Shown: piece by piece, positions 83 to 38,386 of the stretch
Layout: the number at the start of each line of letters is the position of its first letter
Numbering within the stretch: the stretch's first letter is position 1
Source of the DNA: a virus
DNA length: 38,464 nucleotides
Reading direction: 5' to 3' (one strand)
IMG/VR virus record: IMGVR_UViG_3300036780_000113
Location: 1-38,464 of that record
Notes under the pieces: generated by a model
The model's database searches: none
Seen by the model: only the letters and a program-made list of their open reading frames with translations
What the model was told of the DNA's origin: nothing
Program-made: the position numbers and the translations under genes

Positions 83-121
83 GGCAGCGTAGCTCAGTGG
101 TAGAGCAGGGGAATCATAATC
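83..121 (+). repeat. attL: attL: 5' half of the tRNA(CAT) gene
   Basis: These 39 bases are identical to 38348-38386, the first 39 bases of the intact tRNA gene at the right end. They cover the acceptor 5' strand, the D arm and the anticodon stem-loop up to one base past the loop. Identity stops at 122, where prophage sequence begins. The inverted anticodon stem (GGGGA/TCCC) around a 7-base loop is the usual crossover site of tRNA-directed tyrosine integrases. Confidence 0.9.
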
Positions 122-243
122 ACATTTAATGTCTGCCCATAGCTGCTCATACCTTCTCCTAACCCTTTGAGCCTCTTGCGTTTTTCGAGTGGTACGATGT
201 GCATGGACGCACATCGACAACCACTGCTTCGCGCACGTTGCGC

Positions 244-263
244 GAGACATATACGAGACACGG
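244..263 (+). repeat. Left copy of 20-bp end repeat, candidate integrase arm site
   Basis: A 20-base block (GAGACATA, one variable base, then ACGAGACACGG) occurs here just upstream of the integrase start and again at 38298-38317 just inside attR, with one mismatch. Both copies are in the same orientation. Their position next to both ends suggests arm-type integrase or directionality-factor sites. The 3' end of this copy touches the integrase ribosome binding site, so binding could also control integrase expression. The role is inferred. Confidence 0.5.
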
Positions 264-271
264 AGGACACG

Positions 272-1408
272 ATGAAGCTCACGGATTTAAGCGTCCGGGC
301 GCTCAAAACTCCCGAAACTGGTTACCAAATCTACAATGACGACACTCTTCCTGGTTTTGGTGTCCGCATTACCGCCAATGGAGTGAAAAGCTACGTGCTC
401 ACGCACGGTGTCCGCCGCCAGCGGGAGACTATCGGCCGCGTAGGCATCCTGAGCTTGCAGGAGGCTCGTAGCGAGGCGAAACGGCGTCTAGCCGAGTACA
501 CCCTCGGAAAGACTGCAAACGCATCTACCACGTGGAAATCAGCCCTAGAAGAATATCTGGCTGAAGTGGAGAGGCGTTGCCGTCCCAGTACGCTAGCAAG
601 CTATCGGCGCCATCTTTCCTCACACTTCCGCTTCGGCGACACGAAACTGGCCGACATAACACCGGCCGATCTCCGCGACAGACTCAACAAGCTGTCCCGG
701 CGCCCGGCGGAACAGGAGCATGCCTTCACCGCGCTCCGCGCCTTCCTTCAATGGGCCTACCGCGCTCATCACATAGACCACAAGCCGCTCGACAGGATGC
801 AGAAACCAACAGGTTCCGTGGCTCGCAGCCGGACTCTTTCGGACGACGAGCTGAAAGCGGTATGGAACGCGCTCGAAGACAATACCTTCGGACGCATCGT
901 GAAGCTGCTTATCCTCACCGGGCAGCGAGAGACGGAGATCGCCCACCTCACGCCTGATATGATTAAGGGCGACGAGATAACCCTTCCATCATGGCTCACC
1001 AAAAACAAAAGAGAGCACACGTTCCCGATTGGGTCGATCTCCCTGTCCATTTTTACGAAGTCCCAGTCCAAGGAACTTACGTCGTATCTCTTTCCCGCGA
1101 GGGGCTCGAACGGCTCGCTAAAGCTCTTCAGCGGCTGGTCAAAGTGCAAGAAGGCGCTCGATAAGCGTAGCGGCGTTAACGGTTGGCGGCTTCACGATCT
1201 GCGCCGCACCTTCCGTACGAAATGGGAAGAACTCGGCATCCAACCCACCGTTGCCGAGCGGTACATCAACCACGTTTCCGGCGTTCACTCGGGCGTGCAG
1301 GGCATCTATAACCGGTACAAGTACCTTCCCGAGATGCAGCTGGCCGTTTCTCACTGGGAAAAGCACCTCACAAATCTCACAAGACCTGTTAGGCTCGTAG
1401 CTGCCTGA
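272..1408 (+). CDS. int: Tyrosine recombinase / phage integrase
   Basis: This 378-aa site-specific recombinase should catalyse integration and excision at the tRNA gene. Residues 1-80 look like the DUF4102 arm-binding domain of P4-type integrases (LPGFGVRITANGVKSY). A core-binding SAM-like domain follows (about 88-180), then the catalytic domain. Catalytic residues visible are Arg219 (TGQRETE), His308 and Arg311 (HDLRR), a His near 333 (NHVSG) and the nucleophile Tyr346 (GIYNRY). ATG 272 is chosen because GGAGG (262-266) lies five bases upstream; an in-frame start at 167 has no ribosome binding site. The gene lies next to attL, as in most temperate phages, and may also be read from the host tRNA promoter. 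Confidence 0.96.
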   Translation: MKLTDLSVRALKTPETGYQIYNDDTLPGFGVRITANGVKSYVLTHGVRRQRETIGRVGILSLQEARSEAKRRLAEYTLGKTANASTTWKSALEEYLAEVERRCRPSTLASYRRHLSSHFRFGDTKLADITPADLRDRLNKLSRRPAEQEHAFTALRAFLQWAYRAHHIDHKPLDRMQKPTGSVARSRTLSDDELKAVWNALEDNTFGRIVKLLILTGQRETEIAHLTPDMIKGDEITLPSWLTKNKREHTFPIGSISLSIFTKSQSKELTSYLFPARGSNGSLKLFSGWSKCKKALDKRSGVNGWRLHDLRRTFRTKWEELGIQPTVAERYINHVSGVHSGVQGIYNRYKYLPEMQLAVSHWEKHLTNLTRPVRLVAA

Positions 1409-1455
1409 GGCTCAACCTCGGGGCGTTGCAACGCTCCCAACATTGGGAGTTTGCA

Positions 1456-1656
1456 ATGCAGCAGTGCGTAGATTGGAAGGTGCTAAAGACGATCCTGCCT
1501 TACTCTCGTGCTCACATCACGCGTCTTGAAACTGACGCCAAGTTTATGGGCGATGACCCGTTTCCGAGTCGCGTTCAGCTTGGAAGGTGCAGGGTGTGCT
1601 GGTGGGTGCATGAAGTAATCGCATGGCTTGAGCGCCGTCCGCGCAAGCGCAAGTAA
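1456..1656 (+). CDS. AlpA-like small DNA-binding regulator, possible excisionase
   Basis: This 66-aa protein fits the AlpA / MerR-like winged-helix family. It has an N-terminal helix-turn-helix (VLKTILPYSRAHITRLE), a wing region with FPSRVQLG, and the typical ending VCWWVHEVIAWLERRP. Relatives next to integrase genes often act as excisionase or integrase regulators. The start at 1456 has GGGAG (1445-1449) six bases upstream, which decides it over the in-frame start at 1426. It sits 47 bases after the integrase and ahead of a terminator, so the two probably form one unit. It has two Cys in the wing (CRVC), uncommon for the family as I know it. Confidence 0.85.
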   Translation: MQQCVDWKVLKTILPYSRAHITRLETDAKFMGDDPFPSRVQLGRCRVCWWVHEVIAWLERRPRKRK

Positions 1657-2070: not shown

Positions 2071-2838
2071 ATGCTTATCGTCGGCACCAACAAATCACCG
2101 ATACTCAAACACGTGCCGCAAACTTTTTTGCTCATCGACGATGGCTCGATCATCGACCGTTTGACGTTTCCAAAACGGCGCAAAATCACCCGCTTCGACC
2201 CGGCCAAACACTCTTTCAATCCGCTCGCGACAATCGACCACAAACGAGCGCGAGACTTTCTCGGGGTACTCAACGCCGTCTTCCCCCAGGGCGAGAACAC
2301 CCTTACCCGCGGCAACGCCGATACCTTCCTGCTTGAAGCGCTCACCGGACATCCCACGCGCCTTGACCGGCTTATTTGCGAACCCACCGACCTTAAGGAC
2401 ACCGGGCATGTAGAGGCGTACCGAAAAATCCGCACCCTGCTCCTTTCCCCTGTCCTCAACCGTGTCCTTTGCCGACCGACGAACTTGTCCTTTAAGGGGA
2501 TACTGCTTGCACGCCTCAATCGCGCCGAGCTAGGCGACTTCGACTGCTTCGTCCTGGGGAACCTGCTTATCGGACAGTATCAAGGACACATTATTGTCCC
2601 TGACTTTGGCTTTTACGCTGCACCGCACCACACGTCCCTTATCCGACAGGGCAGGCTCACCGCAGGCGTGAACTTCCTCGACGAAGTACCGCTCCGTTTG
2701 CGGCAGAGCCTGTTGCTTATGCCAGACAAGATCGCCTCACACGCGACCTTCGACGACGCCGAAACGCTCGCCGTCTACTGCGGCCTCGCTCGCGGCACCA
2801 ATGAGTTCAACGACTACGTGGCACACGCGATGGCTTGA
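2071..2838 (+). CDS. VirD4/TraD-like protein without Walker motifs (probable pseudo-ATPase)
   Basis: This 255-aa protein is not a standard annotated family to me, but it follows the order of the ATPase encoded next to it. LLIDDGSIIDRL matches the neighbour's IFDSKGDLLDHV. ITRFDPAKHSFNPL matches LTLIEPSANLALNPL. The segment ARLNRAELGDFDCFVLGNLL resembles the stretch before Walker B in TraG/VirD4 proteins. The expected Walker A reads GTNKSPIL, with no GKT/S, and the Walker B site reads VPDFGF with no Asp-Glu pair. It is much shorter than VirD4 and has no membrane segment. I infer a catalytically dead partner of the next gene, perhaps in a mixed hexamer. ATG 2071 is chosen because homology to the ATPase begins there. 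Confidence 0.7.
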   Translation: MLIVGTNKSPILKHVPQTFLLIDDGSIIDRLTFPKRRKITRFDPAKHSFNPLATIDHKRARDFLGVLNAVFPQGENTLTRGNADTFLLEALTGHPTRLDRLICEPTDLKDTGHVEAYRKIRTLLLSPVLNRVLCRPTNLSFKGILLARLNRAELGDFDCFVLGNLLIGQYQGHIIVPDFGFYAAPHHTSLIRQGRLTAGVNFLDEVPLRLRQSLLLMPDKIASHATFDDAETLAVYCGLARGTNEFNDYVAHAMA

Positions 2839-2842
2839 CTCT

Positions 2843-2884
2843 GCCGCCGGCCTTTTGTCGGATTGCGCCTGACGCGGGGGCGGC
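2843..2884 (+). promoter_or_regulatory. GC hairpin before the VirD4-like start codon
   Basis: GCCGCC (2843-2848) can pair with GGCGGC (2879-2884), two bases before the ATG at 2887. The G-rich 3' arm is also the only SD-like sequence available to this gene. The hairpin could therefore dampen its translation relative to the upstream pseudo-ATPase. There is no T tract, so it is not a terminator. Confidence 0.3.
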
Positions 2885-2886
2885 CA

Positions 2887-5109
2887 ATGCCAACATTTGA
2901 TCCAATATACGAACTTTTCAGATTTCTTTTCAAAATCGTCGCGTTCTTCGGCTTCATCGCTCTAATCGTGGCGATATTTGTCGCCCTTTGCCATCTCGCC
3001 GCTAAGGCAAAAGCACTCGGGATTCCTTCCACTACCCGGATCGACGACTACATCAACCACCTCAAAAACCATCACGCGGTTCAAGGCAAAATGGGTGAAG
3101 GGTATGCCTTTTACTCCTACCCTATCTGGTGGCTTTTCTACGCCACCACGGTTCCTGTTCCCCAGCCTGAGCCAGTGGCAGCTATCGACATCGGCGAAAT
3201 CGACAGGATGCTCAAACTCGAAATGAGGATTGCGCTTCCCGAGATGCCCGACTTTGCCGACAAGGCTTCGGAAGCCGGACACCTGATGATGATGAACGAC
3301 CTCATCGAACCGCGGCCAGACGGCACACTGATGCCGATCGGCTTTCAGGTTGTGCATGACGCCTGGAAGAAACGCGTCGCCAACCTCAAAAACTGGTCAC
3401 CCCTCAAGATACTCCGCGAGGCATTCGTCGCGTTCTTCAACGAGCTTCCGTCTGTCGTCGGGCGCTCCGACACAGGATTGCACGCCAGCCTGCTCTCGCT
3501 CATTTCCGAACAGCGACTAAACAACCTCTTCTATAACATCGTGCAGCACGACGTATTTGCCTTCACGTACGGCATCTACACTGCTGGATGGGGGCTCGCC
3601 GAAGAATCAATCAAAGCGCACAAGTTCGACCGCGACAGTCCAGCTCATATCAAAGCTCTCTTGTTCAGTATGGGCAGCATGACGGGCTTCGTGGACGCAC
3701 AACTCCCGATCAAGCTCCCGCAGCCACTACGCTTTGAGGGTACATGGATCGTCGCGCCGCAAGGTAGAGGTAAAACCACACTGCTTTCTGCGCTTCTCAA
3801 AGCCGATTTGGAGGAAGTGCGACAGGGGAAAGCTTGCGTCATAATTTTCGACAGCAAGGGTGATTTACTCGATCACGTTAAGCAACTCGGAAGGTTCGCG
3901 CCCGGCGGCGATCTTGCCGGCAAGCTCACACTCATTGAGCCATCAGCAAACCTTGCGCTTAATCCGCTCCAGCTCGGCGCCTCGCAAGGCCACAACATCG
4001 CGCTCCTCGAATATATCTTCCGCGCGCTTCTTGAGACGAAAACGACTTCGCTTCAATCGACCTTGTTCCGCTCTGTGCTGATCGCGCTGCGGACGATACC
4101 GGGGGCTACATTCTCCACCTTCCGCGAGTTCATTCAGGACGGCTGGCAACCCTACGGACAGTACATCCACCAACTCCATCACGAAGATCGGGACTTTTTC
4201 CTCAAAGGCGAGTTCGACAGCAAGACATATCGCAGCACCCGCGACGAGCTTTTGTGGAGGATACGCGACCTCCCCACGCGAGTTCCTCTGCTTCGCGAAA
4301 TGTTCCGTGCTCCTGAAACCAAGATCGACATGGCGCGGCTCATGGATACTCCCGGGGTTATTGTCATCGACAACAGCATCGCCCAGCTTGCCGAGAGTGG
4401 CTCTGAGTTCTTCTCCCGCTTCTTCATCGCCCTTATCCTTGCGGCGGCGCAGCAGCGCGCGGACCGGAAGGAAAGCGATAAGCTGCCGGTGTACGTCTAC
4501 CTGGACGAAGCGCAGACCGTTATTGCCAAAGACGAGAGCGTCGAGACCATCATCCGTACTTGCCGCTCGCAGAACATCGCTATGACGTTCGCGCATCAGT
4601 CTCTTTCTCAGCTCAAGATTGAGGGCGTTCAATCCTCGCTTGCCGATTGCGCTATCCGCTTCACCAACCCCGATAAGGACGCCAAGGCGCTCGCGGACGA
4701 CTTCCGCACCAATGCAGAGACATTGCAGCAAATCCCGAAAGGGAAGTTCGCCCTATACGTGCGGGAGGACAACACAACGAAACCTATCATCGTCTCGGTG
4801 CCCAACGAGCCCGTTTCGAAGCAAGATACGTGGCCGAAAATGTCCGCACCGCAGCTCCACGCCATTCGAGAGGACATGCGCGCTCGGTATTCGTTCGTCC
4901 CACGGCCTCAGAGTCGTGAGACAGAAAGCCCTCGCGTTCAGCAGGGTGAAGTCGTTGCTCCGCGCCAAAGGGGTGGCCAGAATGTCACGCCCCTTACCGG
5001 CGAGATTGTAGAACCGCAGAGAGATAGCACCGGGCGCGTCATTATTTCCGAGAAATACGGAGAGCGTACCGTGATCGTGGAGAAGGGAACCAAGCCGCAG
5101 AAGTGGTGA
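2887..5109 (+). CDS. VirD4/TraD-like DNA-translocating ATPase
   Basis: This 740-aa membrane ATPase resembles type IV coupling proteins, which pump DNA through a hexameric ring at the inner membrane. Two hydrophobic stretches near the N terminus (about residues 10-40 and 80-95) fit membrane anchors. Walker A is APQGRGKTT (290-298) and Walker B is YLDEAQ (538-543). The sensor-like TFAHQSLSQL and FTNPDKDAKALADDF follow, as in TraG/TraD C-terminal domains. The C-terminal 100 residues are polar and proline-rich, like partner-binding tails. ATG 2887 is preferred over a weak upstream TTG. No relaxase, VirB4 or pore genes are in the window, so phage replication, segregation or mobilisation by a helper are all possible roles. 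Confidence 0.88.
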   Translation: MPTFDPIYELFRFLFKIVAFFGFIALIVAIFVALCHLAAKAKALGIPSTTRIDDYINHLKNHHAVQGKMGEGYAFYSYPIWWLFYATTVPVPQPEPVAAIDIGEIDRMLKLEMRIALPEMPDFADKASEAGHLMMMNDLIEPRPDGTLMPIGFQVVHDAWKKRVANLKNWSPLKILREAFVAFFNELPSVVGRSDTGLHASLLSLISEQRLNNLFYNIVQHDVFAFTYGIYTAGWGLAEESIKAHKFDRDSPAHIKALLFSMGSMTGFVDAQLPIKLPQPLRFEGTWIVAPQGRGKTTLLSALLKADLEEVRQGKACVIIFDSKGDLLDHVKQLGRFAPGGDLAGKLTLIEPSANLALNPLQLGASQGHNIALLEYIFRALLETKTTSLQSTLFRSVLIALRTIPGATFSTFREFIQDGWQPYGQYIHQLHHEDRDFFLKGEFDSKTYRSTRDELLWRIRDLPTRVPLLREMFRAPETKIDMARLMDTPGVIVIDNSIAQLAESGSEFFSRFFIALILAAAQQRADRKESDKLPVYVYLDEAQTVIAKDESVETIIRTCRSQNIAMTFAHQSLSQLKIEGVQSSLADCAIRFTNPDKDAKALADDFRTNAETLQQIPKGKFALYVREDNTTKPIIVSVPNEPVSKQDTWPKMSAPQLHAIREDMRARYSFVPRPQSRETESPRVQQGEVVAPRQRGGQNVTPLTGEIVEPQRDSTGRVIISEKYGERTVIVEKGTKPQKW

Positions 5110-5205
5110 TAACTACCAACCATACTACCTCACTGCGGTACACTGCACCCATAGCTGCTTATAGAGACCGTTTATTTTTACGCCGATTTCTTTATTCCCT
5201 CGTCT

Positions 5206-6093
5206 ATGCGCCTCACTCACCGCGACCTACGCACGCTCGAAGCCGTACAGCGCCACTGGTGGCTGCCGTCTCACTACCTGCATGAATTCACCAAGAACAT
5301 CGCGCATGACATGTACGGCCACCGAAAGAGCCTCAAGCGGCTCGTAGAGGCCGGCTACCTGGCGCGCCCCCTCGCGATCAACAACCCAATGGTGAAAAAC
5401 GATTACCTCTGCTACGCGCTCGGCGAGCAGGGCGAGAAGGCGCTTGCCTTACTCGGTAAGAAACATCGGTACACCGTGCCGCCCGGCGGAGGGTTCGCCC
5501 ATGCTGCCATGACGGTCACGATCACCGCCAACATAGAGCTTGCAGCGACGACTGCCGGTTTCCGCTATATCTCGCAAGAAGAAATCCTAGCCAAAGCGCC
5601 TCACGAGACCCGGGCCGCAAAGCATCCCATCTCGCTTCCGGCCAAGATATCGTGGCGCTTCCCGAAGGGAGCGCAGCACTCCGACCGACCCACGACGCCG
5701 GATCAGCTTTTCGGTATTGACTACGGGGAGGGCTGTCGCTTCTTCGCGGTTGAGGCAGATCGAGGAACCGAAATCGTTGAACCGTCAGACCTCAAGGCCA
5801 ACTCCATTCTGCGCAAGCTCCTCTCGTATCGCGACATTCTCAATCATCACGCCTATCGCAAGGTATGGGGCATACCGAACTTGCTCGTGCTTATCGTCAC
5901 CACGTCTGAGGCACGCGTGGAGAACATGCTTGAGCTTGCCGCGAAGGTGATACCCAGCGGTTCCGAGAACATCCTGTTTACGCACATACCTGGCTTCGAC
6001 GTTTTCTTCCGTTCGCCGCCGCTCCTGCCGCAGCTCTGGGATACTCCATGGAAACGGACGGGACACAAACCATTCGACATCGGGAAGGCATAA
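5206..6093 (+). CDS. Replic_Relax-type protein
   Basis: This 295-aa protein resembles the replication-relaxation family (Replic_Relax), often found beside VirD4-like ATPases on plasmids and integrative elements. The N-terminal winged-helix region reads RLTHRDLRTLEAVQRHWW and KSLKRLVEAGYL, followed by YALGEQGEKALALLG. The central part has FFAVEADRGTE and LLSYRDI, typical of the alpha/beta half of these proteins. It probably binds DNA near an origin or oriT. The spacing of 96 bases after the ATPase, with a TACACT box near 5140, allows a separate promoter. There is no clear ribosome binding site. It probably works with the two upstream genes. Confidence 0.8.
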   Translation: MRLTHRDLRTLEAVQRHWWLPSHYLHEFTKNIAHDMYGHRKSLKRLVEAGYLARPLAINNPMVKNDYLCYALGEQGEKALALLGKKHRYTVPPGGGFAHAAMTVTITANIELAATTAGFRYISQEEILAKAPHETRAAKHPISLPAKISWRFPKGAQHSDRPTTPDQLFGIDYGEGCRFFAVEADRGTEIVEPSDLKANSILRKLLSYRDILNHHAYRKVWGIPNLLVLIVTTSEARVENMLELAAKVIPSGSENILFTHIPGFDVFFRSPPLLPQLWDTPWKRTGHKPFDIGKA

Positions 6094-6094
6094 G

Positions 6095-6119
6095 AAAACC
6101 CCACCGCCGAGCAGTGGGG
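6095..6119 (-). terminator. Intrinsic terminator of the minus-strand gene pair
   Basis: Read on the minus strand, CCCCAC pairs with GTGGGG (plus-strand positions 6114-6119 and 6099-6104) and is followed by TTTT (6098-6095). It ends the unit 6600-6129 and lies just after the stop of the convergent Replic_Relax gene. Confidence 0.8.
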
Positions 6120-6128
6120 GAATCGCGC

Positions 6129-6431
6129 TCACCTGCGCCGGGACCAAGGATCACCTCCTTCAGCAACAGAGCAGACCATTGTGTTTGCGATCATGTATTG
6201 GCGGCGCTCGTCTTCATGCTCGAAGTACCATGAGACGTATTTGGGAACGATGGGGCCAATGCCAGCACGAACGGTACGCACCCAATCTTCCGCATCAAGG
6301 GCAACCCTGTCGCTCATGCACGGTCGCTTGAATACGGTCTCGTAACACCGAGAGAAGACTTCAAAGACCGTTTTGCCGGTCGCGAGTTTTTGATTTACGC
6401 GCCGCACGTACGTCCTGAGATCAACCTGCAT
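6129..6431 (-). CDS. Hypothetical 100-aa protein
   Basis: I do not recognise this family. The protein is basic at both ends, has three Cys (FSRCYETVF, RPCMS, MVCSV) and a central stretch with Trp and aromatic residues (VPKYVSWYFEHEDERRQY). No membrane segment or signal is seen. ATG 6431 overlaps the end of the preceding minus-strand gene by 11 bases, which argues for translational coupling. Longer in-frame versions would overlap that gene almost completely. The terminator lies just downstream. Confidence 0.6.
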   Translation of the reverse strand: MQVDLRTYVRRVNQKLATGKTVFEVFSRCYETVFKRPCMSDRVALDAEDWVRTVRAGIGPIVPKYVSWYFEHEDERRQYMIANTMVCSVAEGGDPWSRRR

Positions 6432-6600
6432 CCTCTTTCGGCGGCAACATGAGCAAGCTGCCATCCCACTCGCCGATTGGAAGAAGATTGAGCCGAACGG
6501 AGATAGCGCCGTCTTTCGCGTGCCACGCGACACCGACCGACTGCCATATCTCACCGACTTTCGCGCGGATATTGAAATCCGGCTTACTACCCTTAGGCAT
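6421..6600 (-). CDS. Small conserved accessory protein (DFNIRAKVGEIW type)
   Basis: This 59-aa protein starts MPKGSKPDFNIRAKVGEIW and ends IGEWDGSLLMLPPKEDAG. I recall similar small proteins on proteobacterial plasmids and integrative elements; their role is not known to me. A perfect AAAGGAG nine bases before the ATG (read on the minus strand) supports the gene strongly. It is the first gene of a two-gene unit and diverges from the primase-like gene at 6733. Confidence 0.8.
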   Translation of the reverse strand: MPKGSKPDFNIRAKVGEIWQSVGVAWHAKDGAISVRLNLLPIGEWDGSLLMLPPKEDAG

Positions 6601-6732
6601 GTGAACGAACTCCTTTATGCCGCTGAAATGCGGCGTGCTGCGGGCATGTCTCGCTCATGTCCACAGCGCGCCGCGCTCCAACTCTTTCTCCGATGATACT
6701 CTGTACACGGAGCATCGAAAGGAGATGTCCAC
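6601..6732. promoter_or_regulatory. Divergent control region between 6600(-) and 6733(+)
   Basis: On the plus strand, TGATACTCT (6694-6702) fits an extended -10 box (TGnTACTCT). It would give a transcript starting near 6709 with the SD site AAAGGAG at 6718-6724. A hairpin (GCCGC 6619-6623, GCGGC 6630-6634) lies 18 bases from the minus-strand start and could be an operator or leader hairpin. Both divergent genes have strong SD sites, unlike most genes in this prophage. Confidence 0.5.
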
Positions 6733-7323
6733 ATGTTCATTGACTTCGCGGCCCTGAAAGCCGCCACGACGATGGCCGACATGGTTTCCATGCTCGACCT
6801 CAAGCTCAAGCAAGCCGGCAACCAATGGAGGGGTGTGTGTCCATTCTGCAAAACGGGTGGCGAACGTGCCCTCGTGATAACCGAAGGACGGGGTTTCTAC
6901 TGCTTCGCGGCAAAAAAGGGCGGCGACCAAATCGCTCTGTACGCGCACATCACCGACGCAAACGTCAAAGACGCCGCAGACGCGATAGCGACGTGGAAGG
7001 GTTTACTGCCTCGGCGGGAAGCGCACCCCACGCTCCCTGGGATAGTTTCTCCGCCAGAGAGCGAGAGCGGCAGCGGGACAAAGAAGCTCGCGCCGCTTTC
7101 CTATCTCGAACCGGAGCATGACGCAGTAGTCGCCCTCGGTTTCAACACCGACTTCTGCAAAGCGCACGGCATCGGATATGCGGGTAGGGGGATGATGCGC
7201 GGCATGATCGCGGTGCCGTTCCGAGACGAGCGCGGAAACCTACTCGGCTACATCGGCATTGAGGATTGCAAGCTTCCCCCGGACTTCATCGCTGGTGTGA
7301 TACCGCTCCGAAAAAGCGCGTAG
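6733..7323 (+). CDS. CHC2 zinc-finger primase-like protein
   Basis: This 196-aa protein resembles the N-terminal zinc-binding part of DnaG-type primases. The block WRGVCPFCKTGGERALVI...FYCFAAKKGGDQIALYAHI matches the CHC2 fold, with the fourth usual Cys replaced by Ala (CFAA). The second half (ARGMMRGMIAVPFRDERG, LLGYIGIED) is like the core seen after CHC2 in plasmid and phage proteins. The classic TOPRIM metal residues are not obvious, so it may recognise priming sites rather than make primers itself. The SD site AAAGGAG lies eight bases before ATG 6733. It heads a short unit with the next gene. Confidence 0.8.
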   Translation: MFIDFAALKAATTMADMVSMLDLKLKQAGNQWRGVCPFCKTGGERALVITEGRGFYCFAAKKGGDQIALYAHITDANVKDAADAIATWKGLLPRREAHPTLPGIVSPPESESGSGTKKLAPLSYLEPEHDAVVALGFNTDFCKAHGIGYAGRGMMRGMIAVPFRDERGNLLGYIGIEDCKLPPDFIAGVIPLRKSA

Positions 7324-8812: not shown

Positions 8813-9112
8813 ATGGCGCGCGGCGGTAAACGACCGGGTGCGGGTAGGAAGCCGGGCAAAACATTGCGTCTACTTGAGATGCTCAACGACAAAGGCACTC
8901 ACGACAAAACCGACTATCTGGCCGAGTTCATGAATTACCTCATCGACAACTACAAAGAGGACACGCGCCTCATGGTGTGGATGGGCGACCACATCTTCGG
9001 CAAAGCGCCGCAAGCGCTCGACATCACGACTGATGGCGAATCGCTCAACGGACCAATGTCCGATCTTCCCAATGAAGAGCTTGAAAAAATCAGCCAAGGC
9101 CGAGCTGGCTAA
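8813..9112 (+). CDS. terS: Small terminase-like protein
   Basis: This 99-aa protein begins MARGGKRPGAGRKPGKTLR, an AT-hook-like start common to phage small terminases and packaging proteins. A helical middle follows (YLAEFMNYLIDNYKED, MVWMGDHIFGKAPQ). Its place directly before the large terminase, overlapping it by 41 bases, is the main support. It would recognise the packaging site and recruit the large subunit. It is shorter than P22 gp3, so the family link is by context and start motif only. Confidence 0.75.
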   Translation: MARGGKRPGAGRKPGKTLRLLEMLNDKGTHDKTDYLAEFMNYLIDNYKEDTRLMVWMGDHIFGKAPQALDITTDGESLNGPMSDLPNEELEKISQGRAG

Positions 9113-10520
9113 ACGCGAGCTTGCACGGCGCAGGCTGCTCGATTTCGTCCTCTTCAATTTCCCTGATTACAAGGTCAACTGGCATCACCGCATCCTCATT
9201 GAGAAGCTGGAAGCGGTCGAGCGAGGAAAAATCAAACGGCTCATCGTCACGATGCCACCGCGCCACGGCAAAAGCGAAGTCGTCTCAGTTCAATTCCCAG
9301 CTTGGGCGATAGGCAGAAACTCAGACCGCAATATCATCGAAGCAAGCTATTCCGCCGACCTTGCCGTTGATTTCGGCCGGCAGGTTCGCAACATCGTGGC
9401 GAGCGAGCGCTATCGTTTCCTGTTCCCGAATGTGAGCCTTGCTGAAGACAGTCAGGCGAAAGGCAAGTGGAACACGAATGCACGCGGCGTATACAACGCT
9501 GTTGGTGTAGGCGGCGCAACGACCGGCAAAGGCGCTGACCTGCTTCTGATCGACGACCCGATCAAGAACCGGCAGGATGCTGAGAGCGAAACCGTACGTG
9601 CCTCAGTGTGGGACTGGTACACCTCGACCGCTCGCACTCGTCTTTCGCCGGAAGGCGCCATCGTGGTCGTCATGACCCGCTGGCACGACGATGACCTCGT
9701 AGGCCGGCTGCTGCGCTCCGAGAATGCTGCCCACTGGGAGCAAGTACACTTTCCGGCCGTGGCGACCGCCAAGGAACGATTTCGTGGCTCTGGCGAGGCT
9801 CTATGGCCTGACCACTTCTCCCTGCCTATCCTTGAGGAGACGAAACGCGACATCGGCTCATACGACTGGTCCAGCCTCTACCAAGGATCGCCACTCGATA
9901 GCGAAAGCCAAGAGTTCCGCAAGGAGTTCTTTCACTCTCGCAGCGAGGATGACTTAAAAGACAAGCGCCTCAATCGCTATCTGACCATCGACTTAGCCTT
10001 TTCCGACAAGGAGACGGCTGACGACCTCGGGTTTTGCGACAACCGAGTTGACCCCAAGAACTGCTGGAACCTGCGTGCATGGAAGCGAAAGATGAGCCCC
10101 AAGGACTTCATCGACTATCTATTCACGCTGCACGCCGAGAACAACTACACGCAAATCGGCATCCTCGATAAGCACTCGCAGTACACCATCGTCATTGCGC
10201 CGTTCATTGAGGAGGAATGCAGGAAGCGCAACAAGTTTCTTCCTATCCTGCCCATTAAGACGCAGGACACGTCCAAAGAGCTACGCATCCGTGCGCTCCT
10301 GCCGCGCTACCTCAATCACAGCGTCTACCACCTCGATGGCGCGTGCGTTGACCTAGAGGAGCAGCTTTTGCGCTTTCCCAAGGGCGTGCATGACGACGTT
10401 GCCGATGCGACTGCCGGCATGGTTGGCTTTGCCGAAGCACCAAACTCCGACGAGCTGGACTTCTTCTATCGGCGCTCCAACGCGGCTATCAACAGGCAGC
10501 CAAACAACAATGCCTTGTAG
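9072..10520 (+). CDS. terL: Large terminase subunit
   Basis: This 482-aa packaging motor cuts concatemeric DNA and pumps it into the prohead. The ATPase domain has Walker A MPPRHGKSE (61-69) and Walker B LLLIDDP with Asp161 and Asp162, plus the coupling-type segment VVMTRWHDDDLVGRL. The nuclease domain starts around Asp307 (TIDLAFSDKE), with FLPILPIKTQ and a final acidic patch HDDVADATAG. ATG 9072 is taken because similarity starts there; an in-frame ATG at 9033 would add 13 residues. The length fits P22-like and related terminases. Confidence 0.95.
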   Translation: MKSLKKSAKAELAKRELARRRLLDFVLFNFPDYKVNWHHRILIEKLEAVERGKIKRLIVTMPPRHGKSEVVSVQFPAWAIGRNSDRNIIEASYSADLAVDFGRQVRNIVASERYRFLFPNVSLAEDSQAKGKWNTNARGVYNAVGVGGATTGKGADLLLIDDPIKNRQDAESETVRASVWDWYTSTARTRLSPEGAIVVVMTRWHDDDLVGRLLRSENAAHWEQVHFPAVATAKERFRGSGEALWPDHFSLPILEETKRDIGSYDWSSLYQGSPLDSESQEFRKEFFHSRSEDDLKDKRLNRYLTIDLAFSDKETADDLGFCDNRVDPKNCWNLRAWKRKMSPKDFIDYLFTLHAENNYTQIGILDKHSQYTIVIAPFIEEECRKRNKFLPILPIKTQDTSKELRIRALLPRYLNHSVYHLDGACVDLEEQLLRFPKGVHDDVADATAGMVGFAEAPNSDELDFFYRRSNAAINRQPNNNAL

Positions 10521-10873: not shown

Positions 10874-11188
10874 ATGCCAAAATCTCCCACAAAGCGTATA
10901 GTCAAAACGAAGATTACTAAGCCAAGGGCAAAGAAGCCTGAACTGGCAGCCGCGTACAAAATCATCATGCGTGTTGGCGGCGAAACTCATATCGCTTACA
11001 ACGACAATCCGCTCGAAGCGCTGTTAGAACTCAAGCCAGACAAGATACCGGCCAAAGCCATCTTCACGCTTGAGCATGACGGCAAAAGCGCAACGCTCAT
11101 TCGTAGAGCCCAGTGGGCGCGTCTTACCCTCAATCGCCGTGCTGTCGCGTTCTATCTCGCCCGCAACCTCGAACGGCTGCTCAAGTAG
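10874..11188 (+). CDS. Hypothetical basic 104-aa protein
   Basis: The protein opens with a very basic stretch (MPKSPTKRIVKTKITKPRAK). A compact domain follows with IIMRVGGETHIAYNDNPLEALLELKP, FTLEHDGKSATLIRR and a helical end RAVAFYLARNLERLLK. I do not recognise the family. It starts six bases after an extended -10 box and stops two bases before the portal ATG. A head-assembly or nucleic-acid-binding role fits the context, but this is inference. Confidence 0.65.
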   Translation: MPKSPTKRIVKTKITKPRAKKPELAAAYKIIMRVGGETHIAYNDNPLEALLELKPDKIPAKAIFTLEHDGKSATLIRRAQWARLTLNRRAVAFYLARNLERLLK

Positions 11189-11190
11189 TC

Positions 11191-13077
11191 ATGAAGGACG
11201 TTTACGAGTACATCCGGCAGGAGGAAATCAACTACAAGACCATGCGCGTGCCCGTCACCGACGGATACGAATGGTCGATGCCCGAACACATCAGGAAATG
11301 CACGCTTTACCGTGATTCAAAATTCACGAGCGGCGCAGACGATGGCAGCCGCCCATTCAAGAACATCGTGCGCCGTATCGTCAACCTTCAGCATTACGCT
11401 ACCGGCTTTGATGTAAAAGATATTGAGCCGTTTGTTGATAATCCCGACGACTATTTCAAGTCACTCATGGTGCGGAAATATTTTGAGAAATGGGCGCGAG
11501 CTAACGGCCTCGATACCTACATCGACCAGAAGACTGAAAGCTATGTCGATTTTGGCGGTGCGCTCACCAGACACGTCAACCAGGTCGCGCCGGAGGTTGT
11601 GCCGCTCCAATCAATTGCCTTTTGCGACCAAAGCGACATCCTCTCCGGTCCCATTTGTATAAAGCACCAGTTTTCACCATCCGAGCTTCGAGACTTTGCA
11701 GAGAATGGTTGGAAGAATATCGACCGCGTTATCCAGCTCGCCCGCGACAGCAAGACCGAGACATCGCTCTCGGGCATCACCGAGCGCGTCGTTAAGACAC
11801 CCGGAAAGTACGTCGAAGTGTACGAGCTTGACGGCATGTTCCCGCGCTCCTGGCTCATGGATAAAGCGGATGCCACTGAGGACGACGAAAAAACCTACAC
11901 TCAGCAGCTTCACATCATCACGTTCTACGAGGATAGCGAAGGCAACGAGGCGGGTATCCCGTTGTTTCAGGGCAATGGCGATCCCAAGAAGTACAAGTTT
12001 ATAGCCCGTGACCCCATCTTCGGCCGCGCACTCGGCATGAGCGCCATCGAGGAGCTGTTCGACGCACAGATATGGACCAACTACGCCATGATCCGGCTGC
12101 AAGGCATGCTCGACACTGCCGCCAAGTGGATAGGCCAAACCGCCGACCAATCCTTCAAGACGCGCAACAAGCTCACCGAACTTGAGAATGGTGAAATCCT
12201 TACGCACAACGGTAGCCCGGTCGAACCCATCAACACACGCCCCTTGTCTGCCGATCTCTTCGAAAAAGCACTCGATATGTGGGACGAGCACGCGCAGAAC
12301 ATCGGCTCGGCTGGCGATGCCATCCTTGGCGAGCGGCCATCCTCCGGCACCCCGTTCGCGCTTCAACAGCTCAATGCCCAGCAGCAGAACAACGTCCATG
12401 AATACCGCCGCGGCAAGCTCGCTGTATCGCTCGCGGAAGAGTTCCGCGACTGGTATCTGCAAGACTTTGCGAGGGCGCTTTCCAACGAACAGACGTTTAT
12501 GGCCGACCTTTCACTCGAAGAGCTTCAGTACGTCGCCGAGCAGTGCGCCCAGTACGAGACCAAGGAGATGGTCAAGCGTCGGGTAATCGCTGGCAACAGT
12601 GCAAACCTCAACCCGCAGGCCATCGGCTCATACCAAGATGGCGTTAAAGGCGCGGTGCTGAAGAAGGGCAACAAGCAGTTTTTCAAGGCGCTCAAAGGCG
12701 ACCTGAAGAGATTGCCCATCGACGTGGAAATCAATGTCGCCGGCAAGCAGAAAGACCTTGCGGGCATGACCGACAAGCTCGTGAACGTGTTCCGCACCAT
12801 CGTCGCCAACCCGACCGTGCTTCAGATCCCGGCCATGGCGAAGCTCTTCAATCAAATCCTCGAATACTCTGGCCTCGACCAAATCGACTTTTCACAAGCA
12901 CAGCCGCAGGGTCAGAACGGTTCATCGACGAAAATCACCGAAGCCATCAATTTCAAAGACTTGCCTCCCGACGGTCAGACGCAGCTTGCCGCTCAGGCCG
13001 GTATCAAAATCCAATCGCAGCCGAGCCCGTTATCCCCACCTGCCGGAGCGCCAGTAGCCGCCGCACCTGCGGTATGA
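11191..13077 (+). CDS. Portal protein, P22-like
   Basis: This 628-aa protein forms the ring through which DNA enters the head. It starts like P22-type portals with a charged helical region (YEYIRQEEINYKTM) and then RDSKFTSGADDGSRPFKNIVRRIVNLQHYATGFDV. The middle has the long beta and wing region, and the C-terminal third is helical and Gln-rich, ending in a Pro/Ala-rich tail. The length suits podovirus portals and exceeds siphovirus ones (about 400-500). Position after terminase and before scaffold and coat supports it. ATG 11191 follows the previous stop directly; a longer in-frame start overlaps that gene. Confidence 0.9.
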   Translation: MKDVYEYIRQEEINYKTMRVPVTDGYEWSMPEHIRKCTLYRDSKFTSGADDGSRPFKNIVRRIVNLQHYATGFDVKDIEPFVDNPDDYFKSLMVRKYFEKWARANGLDTYIDQKTESYVDFGGALTRHVNQVAPEVVPLQSIAFCDQSDILSGPICIKHQFSPSELRDFAENGWKNIDRVIQLARDSKTETSLSGITERVVKTPGKYVEVYELDGMFPRSWLMDKADATEDDEKTYTQQLHIITFYEDSEGNEAGIPLFQGNGDPKKYKFIARDPIFGRALGMSAIEELFDAQIWTNYAMIRLQGMLDTAAKWIGQTADQSFKTRNKLTELENGEILTHNGSPVEPINTRPLSADLFEKALDMWDEHAQNIGSAGDAILGERPSSGTPFALQQLNAQQQNNVHEYRRGKLAVSLAEEFRDWYLQDFARALSNEQTFMADLSLEELQYVAEQCAQYETKEMVKRRVIAGNSANLNPQAIGSYQDGVKGAVLKKGNKQFFKALKGDLKRLPIDVEINVAGKQKDLAGMTDKLVNVFRTIVANPTVLQIPAMAKLFNQILEYSGLDQIDFSQAQPQGQNGSSTKITEAINFKDLPPDGQTQLAAQAGIKIQSQPSPLSPPAGAPVAAAPAV

Positions 13078-15455: not shown

Positions 15456-16295
15456 GTGTCACAAGTATTCAAAGAAGATTGGGCGGTGAAGATGCAGGAG
15501 CGTCTTACCGAACCAACCAAATGGAAGGACTTCATGCGTGTTGAAATCAACAACACGCGCGAACTCCACAACCCATACCGCACCGATGCCACGATCTCGA
15601 CGCTTACGCGCTACAGCGCGTACACGTCCGCACAAGTCGCGCAGACCGATGAGAACATCACGATTAGCGACTCGTTCGTTATTTCGGAAATCATCGACCG
15701 CGCCGACCTCGCGCAGACTGGTTACCTCTCGCAGATGGAGAGCGCCGAGCATCAGGGCATCATGCTCAATGAGAAAATCGAATCGTACATCTACTCGCAG
15801 TATGCGCAGTTGACCACGTTCGATAACACTCAGCTCGGTGGAGGTGCTGGCAACATCACTGTTACCGGAACCAACATCGACAACATGATCACGGGTCTTT
15901 CCCGTCAGATCAGCGCGGCTAAAGGCGATACCCTCTATGAGCGCAATGGAGGCTTCATCGTCTGGCGTCCCGCCGATTTCGAGTTGCTCCAGCAATTCAT
16001 GATGGCCAACGGTTTCGTAACCGCTGATACCGCCCTTCGTGATGGCGTCAACGGCAAAGTCGATTACATGGGCTTCACGCACTACCGCTCGAACCTGCTC
16101 ACCGCAGGCCATCTTGTGGCTGGCGTGAAGAAGCTCTGGCACCTCGGCGTCCTCCGCGACACCTACGGCCAGATCGTCGTGAACCCGCTTGACCCAGGAC
16201 TTGTTTCTGGCGTCAGCATCACGTCTCGTCTCGATTTGAAGACCGCGGCGTGGCACAAAATCACCCCTGTGCTCTTCAACATCACCGTTGCCTAA
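15456..16295 (+). CDS. Major capsid protein
   Basis: This 279-aa protein is the probable coat subunit with an HK97-type fold. Visible elements are an N-terminal arm (VFKEDWAVKMQERLTEPTKW), an E-loop-like TLTRYSAYTSAQVAQTDENI, a long spine helix region around ADLAQTGYLSQMESAEHQG and a C-terminal A-domain (VKKLWHLGVLRDTYGQIVVN, DLKTAAWHKI). It starts with GTG (15456) and has no obvious SD site. Placement after the scaffold and before the adaptor, with its own terminator after it, fits a highly expressed coat gene. Confidence 0.88.
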   Translation: MSQVFKEDWAVKMQERLTEPTKWKDFMRVEINNTRELHNPYRTDATISTLTRYSAYTSAQVAQTDENITISDSFVISEIIDRADLAQTGYLSQMESAEHQGIMLNEKIESYIYSQYAQLTTFDNTQLGGGAGNITVTGTNIDNMITGLSRQISAAKGDTLYERNGGFIVWRPADFELLQQFMMANGFVTADTALRDGVNGKVDYMGFTHYRSNLLTAGHLVAGVKKLWHLGVLRDTYGQIVVNPLDPGLVSGVSITSRLDLKTAAWHKITPVLFNITVA

Positions 16296-23798: not shown

Positions 23799-24572
23799 AT
23801 GCCTAAACCGCCTCTCGACGACGCCAAGATAGCCAAGCTCAAAAACCTCCTCGATGTCGTTGACACCGACACTGCTACCAAAGGTGAAGTCGCCCAAGTC
23901 ATCGGCCATGTCATTGACGCCGTAAGACTCGCGCATGCCAAGCTCACCGGCCGCCTGGATGACGCAACCAAATCGTCGGACGTGGAGCACAAGCGTCTTG
24001 ATGGACGCATCGACACAATTCATCTCACTCCCGGTCCCAAAGGCGATAAGGGCGACAAAGGAGATCCCGGAGAAGGCAAAGATGGTCGTGACGGAAAGGA
24101 CGGCAAAGACGCTATCGACGGCCGCCATGGTAAGGACGGCAAGGATGGCCGCGATGGGACAGACGGCAAGACCGGCGAAAACAGATACATCGGCTGGGGC
24201 GCCCATCCACTCACCATTCAGGCGCTCGGCATCACCATCGACAAAAATACCCGCTTCATCAATTTCACCGGAAGCGGCATCGGCAGTGTTTCGCGTAGTG
24301 CGACCGGCGTAGTTACCGTCAACATCACAGGTGGAGGAGGAGGTACTGGCACTATAGTCGATCAGGAAGTCCCTACCGACTCCGGCGACCACACCAACTT
24401 CACCATCGCGCACACGCCGATTGCCGGAACCTTCCACTTGTACCGAGGCGGCGCGAAGCAGCAATCCGTTGGCCTCACTCCTGACTACACGCTCACGGGC
24501 ACGGCTCTTGCGCTCACCACAGCGCTCAACACCACGCAAGGTGAACAACTGGTCTGCGATTATTCTTACTAG
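23799..24572 (+). CDS. Collagen-like fibre protein
   Basis: This 257-aa protein has an N-terminal helical region (DDAKIAKLKNLLDVVDTDTA, HVIDAVRLAHAKLTGRLDD), then about 15 Gly-X-Y triplets (GPKGDKGDKGDPGEGKDG and more) and a C-terminal beta region (VDQEVPTDSGDHTNFTIAHT, FHLYRGGAKQQSVGL). Collagen repeats are common in phage tail fibres, where they form trimeric shafts. It is likely attached near the hub. It starts a new unit with a leaderless-type promoter. Confidence 0.85.
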   Translation: MPKPPLDDAKIAKLKNLLDVVDTDTATKGEVAQVIGHVIDAVRLAHAKLTGRLDDATKSSDVEHKRLDGRIDTIHLTPGPKGDKGDKGDPGEGKDGRDGKDGKDAIDGRHGKDGKDGRDGTDGKTGENRYIGWGAHPLTIQALGITIDKNTRFINFTGSGIGSVSRSATGVVTVNITGGGGGTGTIVDQEVPTDSGDHTNFTIAHTPIAGTFHLYRGGAKQQSVGLTPDYTLTGTALALTTALNTTQGEQLVCDYSY

Positions 24573-30585: not shown

Positions 30586-31014
30586 CTAACGCTTTTCCTT
30601 TGCAACTCGCGGATCAAGGAATTTGCGCAACCGACGCGCCACACTCCCGATATTCTTCGTCTCGCATTCCCACACGGTTAGCACTTCCCATCCGAGTACT
30701 TTTAGCTCCGCCGTCTTTTTACCATCCCGCTCGACGTTTCCGGTAAGTTTCTTGCTCCAAAACTCTACATTTGATGCTGGCGTTGTTGCTCTTTTGCAGC
30801 CTGGGTGCTGATGCCAAAAGCAGCCATGCACGAAAATTACCTTGCGCCGACTGCGCAAGACGAGATCGGGCTTGCCCGGCAGCTCTTTCCCGTGCAGCCG
30901 ATAGCGATATCCCATTTCGGTAAGCGCTCGCCTGACCGCCATCTCGGCTGACGTGTCTTTGCTGCCAACGGCGCGCATGTTTGCGCTCCGTTGTTCGCTA
31001 CTCAATTTGTCCAT
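30586..31014 (-). CDS. vsr: Very short patch repair endonuclease
   Basis: This 142-aa protein matches Vsr-type nucleases, which nick next to T:G mismatches formed when 5-methylcytosine deaminates. The start has SSEQRSANMRAVGSKDTSAE, then the metal ligand Asp50 (GKPDLVL) and VIFVHGCFWHQHPGC with the catalytic-site His and Zn-binding residues. A C-terminal LGWEVLTVWECE follows. ATG 31014 is preferred over a longer in-frame start because the family begins there. It lies one base after the restriction gene and follows a C5 methylase, its usual partner. Confidence 0.93.
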   Translation of the reverse strand: MDKLSSEQRSANMRAVGSKDTSAEMAVRRALTEMGYRYRLHGKELPGKPDLVLRSRRKVIFVHGCFWHQHPGCKRATTPASNVEFWSKKLTGNVERDGKKTAELKVLGWEVLTVWECETKNIGSVARRLRKFLDPRVAKEKR

Positions 31015-31015
31015 G

Positions 31016-31624
31016 CTAAAGGCCGTGATCTTCCGGCGATCCGGGCATCTTTCCGATATCAAACTTCGTCTTCAAAAACTCGAACACGGCGCGTTGTTCA
31101 TCTTGTCCCGCTCGCCTTATTTGCGATAACAGCCAAAGCGCGGTCGGCTTTTCGCTCGTCACGTTCTTCGCGCCTTGATTGCACGTCGAACAAAGTGTCC
31201 GCAAATTTGAAAGTTCCTCTAGTCCGCCGAGGCTCTTGTCCTTTATGTGCCCAATATGGAGCCGCACAGGCCGACTTGTCGCCGGATCGATCATTCCCGG
31301 CGTGAGACCGCACATTTGGCACGTGAAGCCGTTCCTATCGAGCACTTGCGCTCGCAGCTTCCCAGATATACCTCGCTCAAATGCGAACGTCGCCTTATCC
31401 GGCGGTTGCTCCTTCAGAATGTATTCGCCCGGTTTCAGGGATGCGTTGTCGTTGTGTGTGAGGATCGGCCACCCCTCATCCTCGCGCAGCTCGCGCACGC
31501 GACGTGCCCACTCACTTACGTTCGTGCCGGCCGCATCTCGAAGCTGAATCGAGGTCACCGTTTGGCCGATATGCGCCAAAAGAAATTGTCTGATCTTCTC
31601 TTTCGAGCCGACCTTCCTAGGCAC
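31016..31624 (-). CDS. HNH restriction endonuclease
   Basis: This 202-aa protein has an N-terminal winged-helix type region (SKEKIRQFLLAHIGQTVTSI, EWARRVRELREDEGWPILT) and a C-terminal HNH nuclease (FTCQMCGL, VRLHIGHIKDKSLGG, LRTLCSTCNQG) with two CxxC zinc knuckles. The same layout occurs in type II restriction enzymes found beside C5 methylases. It starts with GTG and overlaps the methylase gene by eight bases. It should cut unmethylated DNA at the site its neighbour protects. The target sequence cannot be read from this window. Confidence 0.85.
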   Translation of the reverse strand: MPRKVGSKEKIRQFLLAHIGQTVTSIQLRDAAGTNVSEWARRVRELREDEGWPILTHNDNASLKPGEYILKEQPPDKATFAFERGISGKLRAQVLDRNGFTCQMCGLTPGMIDPATSRPVRLHIGHIKDKSLGGLEELSNLRTLCSTCNQGAKNVTSEKPTALWLLSQIRRAGQDEQRAVFEFLKTKFDIGKMPGSPEDHGL

Positions 31625-32348
31625 GTCGTCTCACCCCTATCGCAGCCAAATGACGCAGCAATGCTTTGCCTACCAACTCCGTGTATGCGGGCGGGATTGA
31701 CTCGTTTATCTCCATCTTCGTCATCCAATCGATGCCCATAGCCGCACGAGCAGCCGCTATCGAGCAATTTCCTCCACCCGTCACCTGGACGAAATCCTTC
31801 CACTCATCGGTTTTTCCGAAATGCGACTTGCGACGGTCGAATGTGTGCACCTTCGGGTGCTTCTTGTGCGGGGGCGCCACAATCTCGAAATTCGCTTCGA
31901 ATAAGCGGTGTCGCAGCACTCGCAATTTCGGAAACATCGTACCGCACAGCACAACCGGATCGAGCAACGGCGCACCGTCCACATTCTCCATGACGTACGG
32001 CAGACCTGTTTTCTTCAGCATCTTGCGCACAGGCTCGATGAGACGCGGCCATGCGTCTCCGTTCCCGTTTCGCTTCGCCAGATCGGAATAGGATTGGCAC
32101 GGTGGCGATGCGTGTATCGCGTCGAACATCGCAAGGAACTTCGGATCGAGCTTGAGCGCGTCAGCCTGGATGAATGGCAGCGGGTAGTTCGGCTGCGGCT
32201 TGATGTCTACGCCGATGACTTCGAACCCAGCTCTCTGAAACCCAACGCCTGCCCCGCCGGCACAGCAGAACAGGTCGAGCAGCCGGGGACGCCCGGCCGC
32301 TATACGCAGCTTCCGTTCGGCAAATGCTTGATAATCAAGGATTTTCAT
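31617..32348 (-). CDS. DNA C5-cytosine methyltransferase
   Basis: This 243-aa enzyme transfers a methyl group from S-adenosylmethionine to cytosine. Motif I is DLFCCAGGAGVGF (25-37), motif IV ASPPCQSYS has catalytic Cys84, motif VI is VMENVDG (119-125), and LRHRLFE and IPPAYTELVGKALL match motifs VIII and X. It is shorter than many C5 methylases (about 330 and more), so the target recognition domain is small. It heads a transcription unit with the HNH nuclease and Vsr. A TGCTAGGCT box six bases before the ATG suggests a leaderless promoter. Confidence 0.94.
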   Translation of the reverse strand: MKILDYQAFAERKLRIAAGRPRLLDLFCCAGGAGVGFQRAGFEVIGVDIKPQPNYPLPFIQADALKLDPKFLAMFDAIHASPPCQSYSDLAKRNGNGDAWPRLIEPVRKMLKKTGLPYVMENVDGAPLLDPVVLCGTMFPKLRVLRHRLFEANFEIVAPPHKKHPKVHTFDRRKSHFGKTDEWKDFVQVTGGGNCSIAAARAAMGIDWMTKMEINESIPPAYTELVGKALLRHLAAIGVRRRA

Positions 32349-32354
32349 GGTGAC

Positions 32355-32363
32355 AGCCTAGCA
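32355..32363 (-). promoter_or_regulatory. Leaderless-type promoter of the restriction-modification unit
   Basis: Read on the minus strand, TGCTAGGCT (32363-32355) fits TGn plus a weak -10 (TAGGCT) whose end lies six bases before the methylase ATG (32348). No SD site is seen. Confidence 0.4.
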
Positions 32364-32395
32364 GGCCATTAACTTTTACACGATTCGTTCCGCCT

Positions 32396-32629
32396 TTAGA
32401 ATCCCCTCCCATGGTTCTCTGTTGGCGGCTTCTTCAAGAACACCACGTGGTGCGACAGGCTCTCCGCGATCCTTTGCGCCAGCATCGGCAAGCCGCGGTC
32501 CATAGCTTCCGCGAACGTCACGCGACCCAGCTTCACCCGTCCGACGCACATGTGCATCGCGAACCGAAGCTCCTCGGCGATCTCCTCGACGGTCAGCCGA
32601 CGGCAGTTTGCGGGGTCTTCTCGGTCCAT
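32396..32629 (-). CDS. Hypothetical 77-aa protein
   Basis: This small protein (LTVEEIAEELRFAMHMCVGR, VTFAEAMDRGLPMLAQRIAE) is helical and amphipathic and ends in a basic stretch. I do not recognise the family. It precedes the methylase on the same strand, separated by 47 bases, so it could be a control gene of the restriction cassette; there is no helix-turn-helix that I can assign with confidence. No SD site is visible. A longer frame on the same strand (32376-32666) is a shadow. Confidence 0.5.
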   Translation of the reverse strand: MDREDPANCRRLTVEEIAEELRFAMHMCVGRVKLGRVTFAEAMDRGLPMLAQRIAESLSHHVVFLKKPPTENHGRGF

Positions 32630-32729
32630 AGAACGGAAAGAGAACGCGATGGACCGTCAGAGTCAAGTGCTTCCCGCACTTCTCCCTCCGTGCTATGAGA
32701 AATTACGGGGTCATTCGGGGGATCACCCA

Positions 32730-33425: not shown

Positions 33426-33428
33426 TCG

Positions 33429-33689
33429 TCAGAACAACACCGCCGTCCTCACCCCGTTCTTCTCCTCAAACCGTGCGTCCGACCGCGGCTCCGCGAACAG
33501 CTTCTGCACAGAAAACCCGAACTCGTCCGTTCCCACTGGCCGAATGTCGTACCCGCGACCTCGCAGTTCCGATATGCGCCCGTTCGTTTCGCTAATCATC
33601 AGCTCCCGCTTCATGTAGCGCACCGACACACCTTCGGGATTCTGCCTCAGCGCTTCGAGAATGCGCTGGCCCTGTGTTTTCGGCTTCAT
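33429..33689 (-). CDS. Winged-helix DNA-binding protein
   Basis: This 86-aa protein has a winged-helix pattern (QRILEALRQNPEGVSVRYMK, LMISETNGRISELRGRGYDI) often seen in phage regulators. It is the last gene of the minus-strand operon and starts with an ATGA overlap with the gene before it. It probably binds DNA to tune the operon or lysogeny. Target and effect are unknown. Confidence 0.8.
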   Translation of the reverse strand: MKPKTQGQRILEALRQNPEGVSVRYMKRELMISETNGRISELRGRGYDIRPVGTDEFGFSVQKLFAEPRSDARFEEKNGVRTAVLF

Positions 33690-38347: not shown

Positions 38348-38386
38348 GGCAGCGTAGCTCAGTGGTAGAGCAGGGGAATCATAATC
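38348..38386 (+). repeat. attR: attR: rebuilt 5' half of the tRNA gene
   Basis: These bases are identical to attL (83-121). Together with the host 3' half that follows, they keep an intact tRNA gene after integration. The native promoter stays at attL. A weak -10-like TTAAAA (38332-38337) upstream could be the prophage substitute. Confidence 0.9.

Follow-up and report, generated by a model that had tools for sequence, protein, structure and literature searches.

Relaxase and coupling-protein genes that travel without a type IV secretion system (T4SS) are already known from CloDF13 and from integrative and mobilisable elements (IMEs). CloDF13, one of the MOBC1 mobilisable plasmids with their own type IV coupling protein (T4CP), encodes the TraG-D_C ATPase MobB and, after it, the PF13814 relaxase MobC, and has no T4SS of its own (PMC7431656). 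Likewise, the streptococcal IME_Class_8 is a compact combination of an integrase, a VirD4 coupling protein and a PF13814/MobC relaxase (PMC5357655). Here we analyse a gene cassette of similar composition at the left end of a prophage, contained in a window of 38,464 bases that is the whole of IMG/VR record IMGVR_UViG_3300036780_000113. We tentatively favour, at somewhat short of an even chance, the interpretation that the cassette is an IME/CloDF13-type relaxase and coupling-ATPase module adopted by temperate tailed phages, in which it would serve helper-dependent mobilisation; a common origin with mobilisation modules has good support. No account of unrelated temperate phages sharing a conserved module of this kind was found in the available literature, most subscription journals lying outside the search, nor was a phage-restricted inactivated VirD4-type partner found described in the open-access literature.

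From the left end, the gene order is integrase, small basic protein, P0001, P0002, P0003 and, beyond a gap, a CHC2 zinc-ribbon gene. The cassette and its two gaps comprise:

1657–2070, no strand: non-coding gap containing inverted repeats of 18 nt and 12 nt, a candidate regulatory or origin region.
2071–2838, plus strand: P0001, shortened VirD4-type pseudo-ATPase of 255 aa (hhalign, AlphaFold2/Foldseek, Walker survey).
2863–5109, plus strand: P0002, predicted VirD4-type coupling ATPase with an N-terminal membrane helix (Pfam TraG-D_C, Walker motifs, hydropathy).
5206–6093, plus strand: P0003, Replic_Relax/MOBC family, predicted winged helix and PD-(D/E)XK-like nuclease (Pfam PF13814, conserved columns, model).
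6094–6732, no strand: apparently non-coding gap of 640 bp between P0003 and the CHC2 gene, with a 12-nt direct repeat at 6509/6554, a candidate origin.
6733–7323, plus strand: CHC2 (DnaG-type) zinc-ribbon protein, conserved with the cassette (Pfam Zn_ribbon_DnaG, E 2e-10).

P0002 carries an intact Walker A (APQGRGKTT) and Walker B (YVYLDEAQ), scores 27.4 bits against Pfam TraG-D_C (cut-off 22) and has one strong membrane helix predicted from hydropathy at residues 25–43, a feature of T4CPs that speaks for mobilisation; its frame opens at TTG 2863, and ATG 2887 is the likelier start. On these motifs it is a live VirD4-type ATPase. Its family aligns with MobB of a CloDF13-like plasmid (hhalign 94%, E 1.5e-7), and in a quick tree the phage copies fall on several long branches, which supports neither a single capture nor any particular number of captures. 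Directly upstream of the live ATPase, a gene of ~120–155 aa with no Pfam family above cut-off is common in the islands described below and also occurs in several phages (L088 8883–9317, L009 3304–3768 and many others).

P0003 scores 34.8 bits against Pfam Replic_Relax PF13814 (cut-off 25.3), the family named as the MobC/MOBC relaxase class by CONJscan (PMC5357655). MobC of the CloDF13-like plasmid matches the same profile (E 8e-22, 78.7 bits), and the gene beside it matches TraG-D_C. Membership of shared families, namely PF13814 for P0003 and MobC and TraG-D_C for P0002 and the CloDF13-like MobB, supports the mobilisation interpretation. Across 27 sequences of the P0003 family, two residues (H99 and D185) are invariant and four more (P165, D166, E183 and T188) almost invariant, outlining an active-site motif P165-D166, E183-x-D185 in which the lysine position of PD-(D/E)XK is occupied by D. 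The structural model (pLDDT, the predicted local distance difference test, 93) was built from an alignment with one row from the plasmid collection left out. Its best Foldseek matches are AddB nuclease, SdaI, FokI, MunI, XisH-like proteins and winged-helix regulators, full-length TM-scores being low, and PD-(D/E)XK restriction enzymes are kin of MOBC relaxases (PMC12857230). Pfam profile, motif and predicted fold together place P0003 in the MOBC relaxase family, with nicking a putative activity.

P0001 on its own has no match in Pfam, PHROGs or NCBIfam. Combined with seven relatives, however, its profile aligns collinearly over 229 columns with the first-position VirD4 proteins, that is, the first of the two ATPases in the cassettes described below (hhalign 94%, E 1.4e-7), and more weakly with the live VirD4-type ATPase (81%, E 1.2e-5), as against 0.2% for the unrelated Replic_Relax in an earlier run with three sequences. 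The AlphaFold2 model (pLDDT 84) has as its top four Foldseek matches in the PDB Cag-beta, VirB4 and two TrwB entries, all with probability 1.00. P0001 is shorter than the first ATPase by about a third, and the motif survey found neither Walker A nor Walker B, so that it is a pseudo-ATPase; on profile and predicted fold it is an inactivated VirD4-type relative.

A first-pass annotation of the window had described a dead and a live VirD4-like ATPase with the same order of segments, followed by a Replic_Relax-type gene, in a prophage with neither relaxase nor T4SS genes. Its three open reading frames are all present, the dead and live pair and the Replic_Relax partner stand, and the fold predicted for the 255-aa protein is T4SS-ATPase-like, not one unrelated to VirD4/TraD. 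Only the statement that no relaxase is present has to be withdrawn, because PF13814 is the CONJscan MobC/MOBC family. The two roles that it put forward, a replication or segregation motor and mobilisation by a helper, correspond to the two most probable interpretations below.

Related viral records were collected by alignment-based IMG/VR scans and profile searches. Single-protein searches of IMG/VR with P0001, P0002 or P0003 gave no match, so that alignments were needed. Similarly, none of the three proteins has a sequence match among the INPHARED phages (50,697 records); the ATPase of locus L007 weakly matches two phage records there. Integrase, live ATPase, Replic_Relax and CHC2 genes occur together in thirteen viral records including the window (G000, G001, G003–G011, G019 and G020); in one of them, the 11.7-kb fragment G011, the Replic_Relax and CHC2 scores are weak. 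At least three unrelated sets of head and tail genes, as defined by Blast clusters, are represented (G000/G001; G004/G006/G009; G003/G007/G008/G010), and the cassette remains with the integrase as these genes change. G004 and G009 are apparently complete genomes, since both have 127-bp terminal repeats. G003 is a chromosomal prophage (L104) of LSUCC0112, a marine strain in culture (PMC6606908), which makes the module testable in a cultured bacterium. The recurrence of the set across unrelated phages, together with head genes, rejects a chance neighbourhood, a point on which the first-pass annotation had made its interpretation depend: the cassette is conserved and accompanies the integrase in phages that are not related to one another.

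A P0001 relative is found in 11 of the thirteen records, and all eleven also have the live ATPase. A check in both directions gave the ATPase in 6/6 records found with P0001 and P0001 in 2/2 records found with the ATPase. The two genes adjoin in some records and lie more than 10 kb apart in G001, G006–G008, G019 and G020, so their joint retention is not mere linkage. These observations bear on the idea that the genes are decaying relics of a captured mobile element without present function. Such decay would fit P0001, which has lost both Walker motifs and some third of the length of the first ATPase, but relics are expected to be riddled with stops, whereas the P0001 relatives (39–52% identity) are all truncated in the same way, eight aligned sequences have 40 columns without variation, and the live ATPase is kept in every P0001-bearing record. 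We disfavour this idea and consider it highly improbable.

VirB4 is absent from all nine related phage records searched, as expected of a hitcher needing a helper, and no T4SS was recognised in the window, as first reported; identity as an integrative and conjugative element is rejected for want of VirB4. The window thus has the components of an IME, an integrase and a PF13814 gene with no recognised T4SS. It also has a terminase and a major head protein, and is therefore a hybrid of phage and mobilisable element at most.

Three further records deserve mention. IMG/VR UViG_2898945296_000003 (G002) was not counted as a phage; its cassette part matches the Phaeobacter (Rhodobacterales) island L054, its ATPases are intact and it has no head clusters in common with the other records, so that it is perhaps an island listed as a virus. 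The isolate-derived virus record G021 (L140, 2853–5123) encodes a different full-length conjugation-type ATPase without the cassette and was dropped as a relative, the match being generic only. Besides their two VirD4-type proteins, G001 (32064–33746, after a NinB-like gene) and G010 (8836–10431) have a separate HerA-type (DUF87) ATPase gene.

Outside phages, a genome scan yielded 80 loci, mostly from Alphaproteobacteria. Loci L103 and L105 have the exact order integrase, ATPase 1, ATPase 2, Replic_Relax, CHC2; their surroundings carry ArdC, RadC and MerR genes, with no phage head gene and no VirB gene among all 24 Pfam families found. The islands L040 and L054 carry restriction-modification genes, with no phage head genes among the 25 of 28 Pfam families listed. 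Two plasmids, NZ_CP081110.1 (L002) and NZ_AP019788.1 (L003), which MOB-suite types as non-mobilizable, encode a live ATPase and Replic_Relax; mobility typing may miss this class, in which a coupling ATPase accompanies a MOBC-family gene. The island data favour a mobilisation ancestry of the cassette.

Islands and phages differ in the first ATPase. By pattern, both Walker motifs are kept in ~40/43 first-position ATPases of chromosomal loci, the misses being the LSUCC0112 prophage, one truncated call and L043, which is intact by eye; in L103, read by eye, Walker A is kept and Walker B reads YIDDAN. In the phages, on the other hand, the first ATPase is degenerate in 13/13: Walker A survives without B in G004, and both motifs are missing in G003 and in the eleven P0001-type proteins. 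Phage status is thus strongly associated with degeneracy, although these are not thirteen independent losses, because the proteins are related by descent. A VirD4-type ATPase that is intact in islands and dead in every examined phage offers a clean natural test of the role of the second ATPase.

According to the mobilisation interpretation, the prophage would excise and its circular form would be nicked by P0003 at some site, probably within one of the two non-coding gaps. A ring of P0002, anchored in the membrane, would engage the nicked strand, and P0001, which would not hydrolyse ATP, would be a structural or regulatory subunit within or controlling that ring. A helper T4SS would then move the phage genome by conjugation, and the CHC2 protein, in which no complete TOPRIM or primase domain is recognised, may aid complementary-strand synthesis. 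Gaps comparable to 6094–6732 also occur in G001, G005 and G008. HNH/NUMOD homing-endonuclease-like genes lie between Replic_Relax and CHC2, in the suspected origin gap, in G003 (31240–31809) and G006 (5340–5906). If mobilisation is correct, temperate phages gain a second intercellular route, conjugation beside virions, and the boundary between prophage and integrative mobilisable element is blurred.

Several results weigh against this interpretation. Direct comparison of P0003 with the CloDF13-like MobC is not significant (no BLASTP match; hhalign 0.4%, collinear at the motif), so that the link between them runs via the Pfam profile and the motif. No origin of transfer was identified in the window, where the repeat search gave weak repeats only. 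The membrane domain of the T4CP is essential for mobilisation of CloDF13 (PMC7431656), yet no membrane helix is predicted within 4/11 viral live-ATPase reading frames (G001, G005, G007 and G008). LSUCC0112, the cultured strain that carries the G003 prophage, gave no VirB4 match, and this strain therefore has no resident helper. Finally, the phage-only degeneracy of the first ATPase suggests an altered role.

That altered role would suit a phage replication module, in which a nick by P0003 starts rolling-circle replication, the VirD4-type ring and its dead partner displace the strand, CHC2 helps to prime and the resulting concatemers are packaged. We regard this as possible, if doubtful; such a module may still descend from a mobilisation module. 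In its favour, one ATPase has decayed in the phages specifically, in keeping with a new use; module and integrase remain together where head and tail genes differ; and the CHC2 zinc ribbon is of primase type. Moreover, the 69 early proteins of G004 and G009 include ERF, exonuclease, NinG and HNH proteins, yet Pfam recognises no initiator, helicase, primase or polymerase among them. These missing matches are weak evidence, because host helicase and polymerase serve many temperate phages, and an early protein of G005 resembles a phage replisome organiser by eye, with no Pfam match. Also against replication, P0002 looks membrane-anchored, non-phage islands retain the same gene set and VirD4-type proteins are not known to act as replicative helicases. 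A stronger proposal is rather unlikely: that genome copying dispenses with the usual initiator and helicase genes, their work being done by a nickase of MOBC type, a VirD4-type motor that has its own pseudo-ATPase subunit, and a CHC2 protein. If replication is the true function, the relaxase and its coupling protein have been recruited to copy a virus genome, and the assembly in the stronger proposal would be the first of VirD4 type to mix live and dead subunits.

A hexameric ATPase with a PD-(D/E)XK-like nuclease near an integrase also recalls phage-carried defence cargo, and a role in defence or superinfection exclusion would be in keeping with the restriction-modification genes that adjoin some islands, with HerA and DptH among the PDB matches and with a weak match of the PADLOC model mad8 (MADS ATPase) to the ATPase domain (E 3e-11). 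The match extends to this shared domain only: no other gene of MADS, of HerA-nuclease or of another system was matched, and MADS or any other PADLOC system is rejected. Phages also conserve the cassette much more strongly than is usual for cargo, and we think a defence role improbable.

The remainder of the window is that of a temperate tailed phage, with terminase, head genes, integrase and attachment (att) sites, in agreement with the prophage nature first claimed, the P22-like podovirus label being tentative:

83–121, plus strand: attL, a 39-bp direct repeat, the 5' half of tRNA-Met, with an exact copy at 38348–38386.
167–1408, plus strand: tyrosine integrase, detected with a hidden Markov model built here; the family is common to all related records and the probable start is ATG 272.
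1426–1656, plus strand: small basic protein, putatively excisionase-like by position (tblastn relative in L006, E 1e-8).
9033–10520, plus strand: terminase large subunit (phrog_38, E 1e-102).
11113–13077, plus strand: portal-like protein, named from position and shape.
15456–16295, plus strand: major head protein (phrog_267, E 1.3e-9).
38348–38386, plus strand: attR, the repeat copy within an intact tRNA-Met (38348–38422).

The two repeats bound a prophage of ~38.3 kb integrated at tRNA-Met. The small basic protein clusters with a G006 gene adjoining the G006 integrase. The portal-like protein has no PHROGs match; its counterpart in the same place in G001 is 31% identical, and a relative is also present in G020. 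Elsewhere in the window, Pfam identifies adjoining genes for a Vsr mismatch endonuclease, an HNH protein and a C5-cytosine methylase (30586–32348, minus strand), and a collagen-like Gly-X-Y stretch at 23799–24572 (GPKGDKGDKGDPGEGKDGRDG...) probably belongs to a tail-fibre or surface protein.

Compared with the systems described at the outset, the cassette stands apart in its setting and in its paired ATPases. CloDF13 is a plasmid with a single ATPase and lacks a CHC2 gene, an integrase and phage genes, and IME_Class_8 has a serine integrase and a Gram-positive host, with no second ATPase reported and no phage genes. Mobilisation genes also occur in phage-derived elements, namely phage-plasmid derivatives with plasmid-carried MOB functions (PMC10879196), whereas here the cassette accompanies full sets of head genes. 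The VirB4/VirD4-like proteins of large phages, such as Gp156 of Bacillus phage G, resemble P0001 in predicted structure but are full-length. The islands L040, L054, L103 and L105 share with the cassette the paired ATPases and Replic_Relax in the same order, and L103 and L105 the CHC2 gene as well; unlike in the phages, their first ATPase is intact in nearly all.
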